From positions 1 through 51,930 of the forward strand of contig JAEUSP010000105.1 of assembly GCA_016788565.1 (NCBI GenBank): DNA of 51,930 bases, read 5' to 3'. A program made the position numbers and the translations under genes. Of this stretch, positions 25,886 to 51,374 are shown piece by piece; position 1 is the first letter of the stretch, and every line of letters begins with the position of its first letter. The DNA comes from Chlorobiota bacterium (GTDB lineage Bacteria; Bacteroidota; Ignavibacteria; OLB7). The notes beneath the pieces are model-generated. The model ran no database searches and had not been told where the DNA came from. It was given only the letters and a program-made list of their open reading frames with translations.

Positions 25886-27022
25886 TCTGTGCCGAAGGAG
25901 TGAGTTGAAAAATTCCGCGATTCGATAGTGGTTTTGTTGATACCCGTGATTGGCTTCCGCATAATTTCGGGCGCGCGCCCCCATCTGCTGGCGTTCCGTT
26001 GGGTGTTCAATCATCCAACGGAGATCGGCAAGCAACTGCGGGAAATTTCCGGAACAAATACCAATGCCTTCCGAAGCCAATATCCCTGCCGGATCAACAG
26101 AGATAGAAAGGGTAGGGGTTTGGCGCAACCAAGATTCAATAAATACATTGGAAAATCCTTCATACTCACTGGTGTTTATCAACAGTGCTGCTGACTTCAA
26201 TAACTCATCAATTTGTTGGGAGGAGAGTTTTTCAAAAATCTGAAGATTTGGAATGGATGCAGCTTGGCGGTGTAATTCGGAGGTGTACTGCTGGCGTGCG
26301 TTCCCCAACACCATAATAAATTTGGCCTGGAGGTCGCCACACTGTTGCGCCAGTTGAAGAAATAATTCTCCACGTTTTAATGGCCGATAATTGCTGATCC
26401 ATGCAACAGTTAGTTCAGGAGGTTTGATTATTTCTGTTGTGATTTCAGGATGGAGGTTGGGTAAAATTACCGCCTTGCGGGAAAGGGAAGGGGGAAGGAG
26501 TTCGTACTGCTGTTTGTGTTGTGTGATAATTGCATCAGCGTGGTGTAATGTTTTACGCATTTTGCTGTCAGTCCAAACCCCGTATGGCATTATTGCAGCT
26601 TTTTTGATAAAAGATTGCTTGGCGCGGGGCAGCTCGGTAATGCCATGAAATCGCTTCGTGTCGGCATCGCTGGATAATCCGATCACGTACGGAATTTTTT
26701 TGCGTTTACAGTAGCGCACCACTTCGCCACTTTCCTGCAGAATGCTTCGCCCACGTTGATAGACAACATCGGGGGAAATTTCCTGAAGGATTTTCTCGAT
26801 TGCTGCCCACTCAACCTGGAAACCATAGCTTGGCTGCTGAAACCCGTACACAGCCATTGCTCCATCATCAAATTGCCAGCCAAGATTTCCACCCGTTGGG
26901 CACAGATACACCACACGCCAGCCGATATTCTGCATCGCTTTCCCGATGTAGAATATCTGTGTTTCCACACCCCCCTGTTTTTCGGTGTGGAAATAGGAAC
27001 CAGCAATGCACAATGTGGGCAT
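25874..27022 (-). CDS. Glycosyltransferase family 4
   Basis: 382 residues, GT-B fold. GGVETQIFYIGKAMQNIGW is the N-terminal acceptor-side motif with GGVE. LTVAWISNYRPLKRGELFLQ opens the nucleotide-sugar domain. NTSEYEGFSNVFIESWL is the E-x7-E motif of retaining GT4 enzymes. It likely acts in surface polysaccharide assembly; donor and acceptor are not determinable. The gene is visibly poorer in GC than its neighbours, and its 5' flank is packed with repeats, so transfer from elsewhere is plausible. It converges with the P-ATPase gene, overlapping by 12 bp. Confidence 0.88.
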   Translation of the reverse strand: MPTLCIAGSYFHTEKQGGVETQIFYIGKAMQNIGWRVVYLCPTGGNLGWQFDDGAMAVYGFQQPSYGFQVEWAAIEKILQEISPDVVYQRGRSILQESGEVVRYCKRKKIPYVIGLSSDADTKRFHGITELPRAKQSFIKKAAIMPYGVWTDSKMRKTLHHADAIITQHKQQYELLPPSLSRKAVILPNLHPEITTEIIKPPELTVAWISNYRPLKRGELFLQLAQQCGDLQAKFIMVLGNARQQYTSELHRQAASIPNLQIFEKLSSQQIDELLKSAALLINTSEYEGFSNVFIESWLRQTPTLSISVDPAGILASEGIGICSGNFPQLLADLRWMIEHPTERQQMGARARNYAEANHGYQQNHYRIAEFFNSLLRHRLPV

Positions 27023-27066
27023 GGTACGCGCAAGTAGTGAGAATTATGTGGAGTCTCATATCTATG

Positions 27067-27158
27067 GTCGGTGTGCAAAATCCACCGAATATCATCCCCG
27101 CTCATGCTGAGCTCCGTCGAAGTATGAGCGGAGCCACCGAACCCAGAAACCGCCGATC
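27067..27158 (+). repeat. REP-like repeat, CTGAGCTCCGTCGAAG family
   Basis: The core CCCCGCTCATGCTGAGCTCC, then GTCGAAGTATGAGCGGAGCC starts at 27096. CCGCTCAT and ATGAGCGG form a perfect 8-bp inverted repeat. It aligns with 16403-16502, including flanking GTGTGCAAAAT and AACCCAGAAAC. Confidence 0.75.
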
Positions 27159-27205
27159 TTCCACCCGCCGATTTCCTCCTGCACACGCTATACTCCAAAC
27201 AGAGT

Positions 27206-27309
27206 GGTTTGCGAAAAATTTAATCACTGTCATTCCCGCGAAAGCGGGAGCCGAAGGCCTGCGAAGCGTATCCATACCACACCTGGCTGTGTAGAATTTC
27301 GCAAACCAA
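27206..27309. mobile_element. MITE-like element with 12-bp terminal inverted repeats
   Basis: TGGTTTGCGAAA at 27206-27217 and TTTCGCAAACCA at 27298-27309 are perfect inverted copies bounding 104 bp. Inside, CCCGCGAAAGCGGG (27236-27249) forms a tight hairpin. A diverged relative is at 51240-51345, sharing TATACTCCAA upstream, AGTGGTTTGCGA and TGTCATTCCCGCGAAAGCGG. No transposase is encoded. The space 27023-27553 otherwise holds the REP-like copy, a CAATTTGCTC/GAGCAAATTT inverted repeat (27308-27344) and no gene. Confidence 0.6.
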
Positions 27310-27553
27310 TTTGCTCTGAGTGTAACTCTAAATGAGCAAATTTGGCTATGGTTTAGAACGAACATCACGCCGCTCCCAATATCGCTGCAACCCTCTAGAA
27401 AAATGGGAAAGCAAAGCTACAATGCTCAGCCGTAAACTGTTGTTCGCAAACTGTCATTTGCGCAATGTGGAAATTTCAGGGGGTGGTGGGCTATCTTCGT
27501 CGTAAGCCTTTTCCTTGTTGTTCCCAGTATCCAAATCATACTTCCCGCACAGC

Positions 27554-28534
27554 ATGACCTTTGAAGCCCGTTACCAGCAGTACCGCGCCCAGGCCGACCA
27601 ACGAATGATTGAGCTTCTGGAGCGCACCGAACCGCAATCGCTGTACGGGCCAACCCGCTACGTGTTGGAAGCGGGGGGGAAGCGTGTGCGTGCGGTGCTG
27701 GTGATGCTGGCTGCCGAAGCCGTTGGCGGCCAGCCCAGCCAGGCGTTGGATGCCGGGGTTGCCGTGGAAATCCTCCACAACTTCACCCTTGTTCACGACG
27801 ACATCATGGATCGCTCGGCCACACGCCGCGGGCAGCAAACGGTGCACACCCGCTGGGATGAAGGGACCGCAATTCTGGTGGGGGATGTGATGATTGGCAT
27901 CACCTACCAGATTATTCTGCGAAGCATTCAAACACGCCAGCCCCAGGTGCTTGCTGCCATTTCGCAAGGGTTGGTGGATGTTTGCGAAGGGCAGATGTTG
28001 GATAAAGATTTCGAGACCCGCACCCACGTCCAAATGGATGACTATCTGCAGATGATAACCATGAAAACTGGTCGTCTGCTGGAAACCGCTGCCGAAGTTG
28101 GTGGGTTGGTTGGCGGCGGAACGCCCATGCAGATTGCCGCGCTTTGCCAGTACGCCCGGCATCTGGGCCTAGCCTTCCAAATTCAGGATGACCTGCTGGA
28201 CATCACCGCCGCTGCCGACGAGCTTGGGAAACCGATTGGCGGCGATGTGATGGAAGGGAAGCGGACGTGGCTGGTTGTGCAATCGCTGGAACGGGCAACG
28301 TCGCCTCAGGATCGCCAGTTGCTGGCGCGCTTCCTTTCCAACAAAGGGCTTCCGCCGGAAGATGTGCCGGCAATGCGCGAACTCTATCAACGCAACGGAG
28401 TGATTGATGCCGCCCAGGAAGAAGTGCGCTTACACACCGAACGCGCCGAATCCGAACTCCAACATCTTCCCGAAGGGGAGGCGCGCCAGATGCTTGCGTG
28501 GTTCACCCAGATGCTGCTGAACCGTAGGTTCTGA
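27554..28534 (+). CDS. Polyprenyl diphosphate synthase
   Basis: 326 residues. LEAGGKRVRAVLVMLAAEA is the GKxxR substrate region. LVHDDIMDRSATRRG is the first Asp-rich motif (DDxxD), and AFQIQDDLLDITAAADELGK the second. These bind Mg2+-diphosphate and join isopentenyl diphosphate to an allylic primer. Chain length (C20 up to C40) cannot be fixed, though residues before the first motif (ILHNFTL) have Phe, suggesting limited length. The ATG at 27554 follows the conserved start; an upstream in-frame extension is poor. It uses the products of the MEP pathway represented by ispG at 17417. A strong terminator follows. Confidence 0.92.
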   Translation: MTFEARYQQYRAQADQRMIELLERTEPQSLYGPTRYVLEAGGKRVRAVLVMLAAEAVGGQPSQALDAGVAVEILHNFTLVHDDIMDRSATRRGQQTVHTRWDEGTAILVGDVMIGITYQIILRSIQTRQPQVLAAISQGLVDVCEGQMLDKDFETRTHVQMDDYLQMITMKTGRLLETAAEVGGLVGGGTPMQIAALCQYARHLGLAFQIQDDLLDITAAADELGKPIGGDVMEGKRTWLVVQSLERATSPQDRQLLARFLSNKGLPPEDVPAMRELYQRNGVIDAAQEEVRLHTERAESELQHLPEGEARQMLAWFTQMLLNRRF

Positions 28535-51164: not shown

Positions 51165-51239
51165 GCGAGCAAGGATTGAAAGATGGAAAAGCACACACTG
51201 AAGACCGAATAAAAGTACAGAACAGAACGGAGAAAAAAT

Positions 51240-51345
51240 ATACTCCAATGAAAGTGGTTTGCGATAAAAACCGCGCTGTCATTCCCGCGAAAGCGGGAAT
51301 CCATGCGGTTTAGCACCTCATCCAGCTGAGTAGAAATTTGTTCCG
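51240..51345. repeat. Second copy of the MITE-like element (diverged)
   Basis: ATTCCCGCGAAAGCGGGAAT (51281-51300) is a 20-bp perfect palindrome around GCGAAAGC. Its 5' flank matches 27190-27217 (TACTCCAA, AGTGGTTTGCGA). AAACCGC and GCGGTTT form a second nested inverted pair. The far terminal repeat is not recognisable. Confidence 0.6.
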
Positions 51346-51374
51346 AGTATATATCCGAACTTCTACCGCTTCTG

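Follow-up and report, generated by a model that had tools for sequence, protein, structure and literature searches.

The window analysed here is a 51,930-nucleotide stretch of Chlorobiota bacterium, contig C55 of a 4.58 Mb draft genome in 137 contigs (G000). It carries two copies of a short dispersed element with inverted terminal repeats, one of them inserted in a repeat of another family. The features are as follows.

27189..27324, plus strand: MITE copy 1, whole, 136 bp, the duplicated TA at each end included
27189..27219, plus strand: left terminal repeat TATACTCCAAACAGAGTGGTTTGCGAAAAAT of MITE copy 1
27295..27324, minus strand: right terminal repeat of MITE copy 1 (TACACTCAGAGCAAATTGGTTTGCGAAATT on the minus strand)
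27228..27249, plus strand: CGTC-1/dRS3-type REP of copy 1, TGTC tag plus ATTCCCGCGAAAGCGGGA, right arm shortened
27250..27269, plus strand: 20-bp insert GCCGAAGGCCTGCGAAGCGT in copy 1, which splits the REP between GGGA and ATCC; a minority form
51239..51351, plus strand: MITE copy 2, whole, 113 bp, REP intact; limits by eye, the right end being under the script threshold
51277..51303, plus strand: intact CGTC-1 REP TGTCATTCCCGCGAAAGCGGGAATCCA of copy 2
27054..27340 (approximate, by eye), no strand given: second repeat family, with MITE copy 1 inserted in its right terminal repeat; terminal repeat like GGCTCATCTCAAGNTAGTGTGCAAA

The two copies in the window

Copy 1 runs from TATACTC at 27189 to a GAGTGTA that ends at 27324, limits that come from reading the sequence and from a scripted end pair (C55:27189). 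Its left side is TATACTCCAAACAGAGTGGTTTGCGAAAAA, its right side is an imperfect inverse of this, and TA stands at both extremes (27189 and 27324). An earlier note on this DNA had described perfect 12-bp inverted ends. These are present, TGGTTTGCGAAA at 27205-27216 and TTTCGCAAACCA at 27297-27308, one base away from the limits claimed. The 104-bp extent then given to the element (27206-27309) has to be abandoned, as it leaves out the outer part of the terminal repeats; the whole element measures 136 bp.

The core GCGAAAGC is found at 27232-27249 as described before, and so is the relative with ATTCCCGCGAAAGCGGGAAT at 51239-51351, whose core lies at 51281-51298. These are the two core matches in the window; shuffled sequences give a mean of 0.06, and two matches were reached by one of at least 100 shuffles. 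The 9-base end GGTTTGCGA is unremarkable in the window alone, with three matches, a number to which 4 of 100 shuffles also get. Copy 2 shares the outline of copy 1. It is not an extended version of the core, as was previously thought, since most of the elements paired by script have the palindrome intact (102 of the 131 in which a core was recognised). The dRS3 pattern fits copy 2, where the palindrome is intact, and not copy 1, where it is interrupted: the right arm ends at GGGA and the 20-bp insert follows, which leaves copy 1 outside the CGTC-1 definition.

The window also encodes T9SS sorting domains, one open reading frame scoring 34.2 bits (cut-off 23) and another 21.2 bits, in keeping with an origin on the Bacteroidota/Chlorobiota side. 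An Rfam match of window 26900-27700 to a CRISPR repeat, at 18.3 bits against a gathering score of 39, was discarded.

Copy number and distribution

Across the genome, 152 places match the 15-base left end GTGGTTTGCGANAAA at up to one mismatch, and 4 match its reversed control. The end motif TATACTCNNNNNNANNTGGTTTGCGA, which can match either end, has 282 matches at the same threshold (control 0), and the REP core CATTCCCGCGAAAGCGGGA has 130 (control 0). Because left-end and REP-core counts are far above those of the controls, the element is real despite a short end that does not stand out within the window. Further copies thus exist, as the earlier note would have it, and there are more than 100.

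At up to one mismatch, MITE ends are confined to 3 of 61 genomes: G000 with 282 matches, the sister species G001 with 7 and G004 with 3, the other 58 having none. G001 is the sole other genome of the same genus in the set; outside the genus the family has three, G004 among them. A scan of genome contigs for the ends yielded 41 stretches; by record titles, 36 belong to Bacteroidota groups and 1 to Chlorobiota, 3 are labelled Armatimonadetes with coordinates that coincide with G001, and 1 is from Bacillus and is taken for a chance match. Queries of 30-31 bases from the ends met only short, weak matches in plasmid and phage collections. One of 60 phage records matches over 80% of the query length, with 87.5% identity and an E value of 8.

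Two stretches from elsewhere have other hairpins near such ends. In a Tannerella MAG (L101, position 1086 onward) the MITE end recurs some 100 bases away from a hairpin of another kind, TTCCGGCTTTCGCCGGAATGACGG, with no right end seen, and Hymenobacter rubidus (L070) has a long hairpin between MITE ends.

Anatomy of the family

Ends were paired by script in 391,796 bp of fetched stretches around listed copies. This gave 146 pairs, a few long ones of which may combine a left end with the wrong right end. A recognised core lies within 131 pairs. The 15 without one comprise 5 related elements (103, 228 or 231 bp) and 10 apparently spurious pairs. The commonest length is 116 bp (79 of 146). The REP is free of inserts in 102 of the 131 cored pairs; 27 have the 20-bp insert after GGGA, as in copy 1, and 2 have a second insert only. 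This second insert, 21 bp after ATTCCC, is also present in ten of the 27 and brings in a CCCCGACCAGTCGGGG palindrome. The common lengths of 116, 136, 137 and 157 bp agree with these insert combinations. The element is thus short, carries no transposase gene and is present in many copies, as is characteristic of a MITE.

Among the matches listed there are 96 exact left ends, and the script paired 89 of them, one spuriously. The seven unpaired ends are those of the 51254 copy of the window (complete by eye), three copies that proved complete once fetched, a 73-bp copy without REP (L224, L352), a degenerate copy (L048) and a nested one (L271). The 73-bp copy (L224 / L352, contig C77) has both MITE ends, and may be either a cargo-free ancestor or the product of a deletion.

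Copies show no clear bias relative to gene orientation (134 copies). With crude open reading frame calling, the 124 of 134 copies that have a frame called on both sides lie between genes in tandem (68), convergent (33) or divergent (23) arrangement. Most copies are outside long open reading frames, 9 of the 134 overlapping one.

TA target and empty sites

TA stands at both the start and the end of 124 of the 146 scripted pairs, with exact TATACTC at 118 left and 113 right ends. For the empty-site search, the 40-bp flanks of each copy were joined by a single TA and queried against the fetched stretches. Nineteen junction-spanning matches were obtained for 11 sites within the genome. The junction dinucleotide is TA in 10 of the 19 matches (7 of the 11 sites), and the other nine show CA (5), GA (2), TG (1) and TC (1). 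Non-TA junctions are expected if the relatives have diverged, yet are no proof. Both the duplication of the TA target and the empty counterparts, which the earlier note had proposed looking for, are accordingly found.

Several of these sites are in other repeats. The copy at C44:6077 interrupts one whose relative in C47 has TA at the junction (GGGAAGTTATCGGA), five others having CA. The copy at C10:24419 has an empty counterpart, GGGCTGTTACGAGAT, in C14, and the one at C75:19665 sits in GGCTCATCTCAAGTTAGTGTGCAAAG, which is intact with TA in C75:71264 and in C59. At sites C36:1466 and C74:29085, the empty match is a second copy in the same stretch. Copy 1 of the window lies in the second repeat family; its joined flanks read CACACGCTAACTCTAAATGAGC, relatives read CACACTAACTTGGGATGAGCC (C27) and CGCACGATAACTTGAGATAAGCC (C78), and of six relatives of the interrupted repeat five have TA at the site and one has AA.

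The orthologous locus of G001 is without the element. Flanking genes match (query 1-1174 at 84%, 1600-2661 at 88%), and 74 bp separate the two matches, as against 425 in the window. This locus shows absence and not a clean junction, because the second repeat is missing there too. Since more than the MITE is missing, clean junctions come from paralogous repeats only.

Resemblance of the ends to IS630

The earlier note supposed that the element is moved by a transposase encoded elsewhere. IS630-family fragments with resembling, though not identical, ends are present in G000 and in the sister species; this speaks for the supposition, and the lack of a complete IS630 gene in G000 speaks against it. 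A DDE_3 profile search of the G000 draft gave no match, and neither this profile nor tblastn found a complete IS630 gene there, only fragments. Contig breaks inside the insertion sequence may explain the missing DDE_3 match. At contig ends L173-L191 it was observed that many G000 and G001 contigs break inside a multi-copy IS630, the full transposase gene being absent from the assemblies.

A complete insertion sequence is present in Hymenobacter frigidus (L162), with ends TATACTCGTCACGAAGCAGTTTGCG / TATACTCGTCACGAAGTGAATTGCG. Its transposase belongs to the IS630 family (NF033545, 198.3 bits with a cut-off of 100; DDE_3, 89.9 bits). It was found by a DDE_3 search of 19 end-bearing genomes, 15 of which match, followed by a search for TATACTC in 30 loci, and its ends are thus selected. 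The L162 protein was then compared by tblastn with five genomes of the family. In G000 it matches the starts of C30 (E 3.6e-9) and of C35, C36, C78 and C105 (E 0.011 each), so that, considered one by one, four of the five fragments are weak as protein matches. The starts of C35, C36, C78 and C105 show a transposase-like C-terminus followed by GAGTATA, and C30 stops before the element end. In G001 the best match is in C79 (E 6.3e-22), with many weaker ones; a 153-aa N-terminal piece from G001 is IS630-like (NF033545, 66.8 bits, under the 100-bit cut-off for the full protein). G001 also has 17 copies, 98-100% identical, of another type of IS end. The short C-terminal pieces alone matched no NCBIfam family, and an apparent open reading frame beside the L098 end, read for transposase, gave nothing usable.

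MITE ends agree with the IS ends of G000, G001 and Hymenobacter at 18-23 of 33 positions, and shuffles at about 8-9. The G000 and G001 ends were located by protein search, independently of the end motif. To the resident IS ends the MITE ends are similar at 22 and 20 of 33 positions and not identical; a different IS630, or one that has been lost, may be the true partner.

Perhaps the repeat is instead a host functional element, a terminator or an mRNA 3′ hairpin, copied by recombination. RNA folding is indeed strong (z −5.3 on one strand of the window copy and −4.0 on the other, −6.9 in a 116-bp copy and −3.0 in the 51239 copy), most copies avoid long open reading frames, and the REP is nearly invariant. 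These properties are outweighed by the precise junctions of insertions into other repeats, by the likeness of the ends to IS630 and by the slight preference in gene context, and we consider such an origin very improbable.

The REP hairpin as cargo

CGTC REPs have been defined by a CGTC or TGTC tag, an 8-bp stem starting with AT and tails that are mostly CCA (Di Nocera et al., 2013; PMC3733652). Family 1 has a 4-base loop, and the dRS3 repeat of Neisseria is a CGTC-1 element (PMC3733652). The intact REP of the present element has the same parts, namely the TGTC tag, an 8-bp stem with AT first, a GAAA loop and the CCA tail. The full pattern, TGTC-ATTCCCGC-GAAA-GCGGGAAT-CCA, is found in the 51239 copy and in 61 of the 62 aligned copies. 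The 18-base core string also occurs in one paper on Neisseria gonorrhoeae.

Of the 130 core matches in the genome, 120 were seen in fetched stretches, and 118 of these are inside the MITE (117 in scripted pairs, plus the 51280 copy of the window by eye). The sole two REPs seen outside it, at C80:59205 and C80:59331 (L229), form a local direct repeat with flank CCACCTCCATGTCATT.

Could the REP itself be the mobile unit, as in REP/BIME elements moved by RAYT, a Y1 HUH transposase, with the outer repeats incidental? The core has the anatomy of a REP, and the genome has one Y1_Tnp match. On the other hand, empty-site junctions fall at the outer TATACTC ends and not at the REP, and nearly all REPs seen lie between those ends. 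In the 3.3 kb read at the Y1_Tnp locus there is no REP core at up to one mismatch and no TATACTC. Moreover, in the survey that defined them, CGTC REPs are without association to transposase genes (PMC3733652). Mobility of the REP on its own is thus extremely improbable. A GTAG REP or REPIN moved by RAYT was also set aside, the tag here being TGTC and the single Y1_Tnp locus having no REP core. That locus (L061, region C137:35586-35927) was seen to be a lone Y1_Tnp gene amid repeats that translate as ASPGQRPGNKGKEGFQALKGRP.

The REP, searched as 25 bases with at most one mismatch, is present in 13 of the 61 genomes, G000 and G001 included. In G001, 3 of 3 matches lie between MITE ends. The next highest counts after G000 are in G049 (29) and G031 (22), genomes of the same class that have no MITE end at up to one mismatch; some of the loci were read, and the REPs there are partly head-to-head dimers. 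REPs without flanking MITE ends in these more distantly related genomes suggest that the MITE took up the REP, the reverse order being less probable. An intact REP is not needed for spread, since 29 of the 131 elements with a recognised core have the REP interrupted and were multiplied nonetheless.

Conservation of the REP

For the alignment, 62 copies of 115-116 bp were picked by their left end, and the spurious pair C117:2433, which by itself accounted for nearly all REP changes when included, was left out. The 27-nt REP has one change, as against 274 in the 60 columns that belong neither to it nor to the left end. An earlier count on 78 copies (0 of 454 changes in the REP) was set aside, as those copies were partly picked by the REP itself. 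The right 30 columns are loosely selected, pairing having required a recognisable right end; this does not favour the reading of REP invariance, because such selection works against seeing changes there. Of the 20 changes that occur in one copy only, the REP has 1, fewer than the 6.2 expected (p 0.006). This signal is far weaker than the total one, so most of the contrast between REP and spacer lies between subfamilies; hence selection may have acted on source elements or in the host, and homogenisation is possible too.

The halves of the element appear to have been shuffled around the REP. In 87 copies, all four combinations occur for 75 of the 143 site pairs that span the REP. For pairs confined to one half, the figures are 20 of 78 (left) and 23 of 55 (right). 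This shuffling and the weak single-copy signal accord with the view that invariance reflects no function and stems from young copies or from recombinational homogenisation. The four-gamete contrast is nevertheless confounded by distance and recurrent mutation, and in the same alignment the single change in the REP stands against 274 in other columns. We give this view chances a little short of even. In the main reading, the near-invariance of the REP would reflect either a need for the hairpin, on the part of the host or of transposition, or homogenisation among copies. With so few changes in the hairpin compared with the remainder of the element, the question arises whether REP hairpins serve the element or the host.

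Comparison with known elements

The bacterial MITEs Correia/NEMIS and RUP are of IS630/Tc1-mariner type and insert at TA. The present element is like them in being short, non-coding, flanked by TIRs and TA duplications and present in high copy number. It would differ from them in its own end, TATACTC-N9-TGGTTTGCGA, found mostly in records labelled Bacteroidota, the end of Correia/NEMIS being specific to Neisseria, and it differs in that its cargo is a CGTC REP.

Reports of CGTC REPs, including dRS3, come from five phyla, and their defining survey gives no dedicated transposase (PMC3733652). Unlike the CGTC-1/dRS3 repeats described there for Neisseria, the REPs seen here are nearly all placed inside a MITE with ends of its own. 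REPs between inverted repeats do have precedents. In A. variabilis, GTAG-15 dimers occur within TATAGGA...TCCTATA palindromes, and in H. neapolitanus CGTC-1 dimers occur within 41-bp palindromes (PMC3733652). Both resemble the present element in this arrangement, and that of A. variabilis is also bounded by TATA. Section 7 of the survey names no transposase for these palindromes and finds none without REPs (PMC3733652), whereas the outer repeats here resemble IS630 ends. QMITE2 of Coxiella burnetii is likewise a MITE containing a REP, but that REP is of the GTAG type, the direct repeats are variable (7-11 nt) and not TA, and IS630 goes unmentioned in the text (PMC5896051). REPs in palindromes or MITEs are thus known in kind (PMC3733652; PMC5896051); what is new is that an IS630 MITE serves as the carrier of a CGTC REP. 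In the open-licence literature searched, no description of the element was found; three papers that contain both end strings are unrelated.

Proposed mechanism

Taken together, the element is very probably a non-autonomous MITE of the IS630/Tc1-mariner type that carries a CGTC-1 REP as cargo and would be mobilised in trans by an IS630 transposase. The earlier interpretation, a MITE that depends on a transposase from another locus, is supported as largely right, with the element both MITE and REP. In the proposed scheme, an IS630-family transposase acting in trans would recognise the terminal repeats, excise the element and insert it at a TA, which would be duplicated. Catalysis in trans is here deduced from sequence. 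In this lineage the MITE would have taken up the CGTC-1 REP hairpin, the direction of capture being probable from comparison of genomes, and would then have multiplied its cargo to more than 100 copies. Multiplication of a REP inside an identifiable transposon of a different kind offers a concrete and testable route by which such hairpins spread.

Related repeats and a broader reading

Same-type ends surround other palindromes in G000, in 103-bp (3 seen) and 228-231-bp (2 seen) elements. In the sister species, 13 of 14 fetched stretches gave a scripted pair; two of the pairs are identical, lie at contig ends and are perhaps not independent. By eye, additional palindromes are present in several G001 elements, in some cases with a CCCCGA...TCGGGG module or a diverged REP, and five elements (L335-L339) hold a degenerate palindrome only.

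Several MITE subfamilies of the genus, with partly different ends, thus appear to hold different palindromes, some CGTC-like by eye. For this reason a bolder reading may be entertained, in which IS630-type MITEs quite generally capture CGTC-type REPs and spread them, and the hairpin is kept because it is useful to the element. The hairpin might help through replication-coupled excision, or might end transcription and so make insertions harmless. Many related Bacteroidota MITEs show no obvious REP, which counts against such generality, and we regard this reading as doubtful.

The 228-231-bp MITEs (C38:20914-21141, C47:12541-12771) have the same ends and paired CGTCATCGCGAGGAG..CGATCTCGCG palindromes, and a similar palindrome adjoins a MITE end in G001 C86 (L063). 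The 103-bp elements are part of a family of 102-103 bp (C48:10789-10891, C91:18683-18785 and C105:54869-54971; in G001, L335-L339, L343 and L344) whose ends resemble those of the G001 IS630 (TTTGCGAAATTC); its G000 members hold a degenerate REP-like core, ATGCCCGTGAAAGCAGGCAT. The second dispersed repeat, MITE-like in form and seen also in L213/C63 and L021/C27, has an inner palindrome, CCGCTCATGCTGAGC..GTCGAAGTATGAGCGG. It has many matches in G000, and its core is also present in G001.
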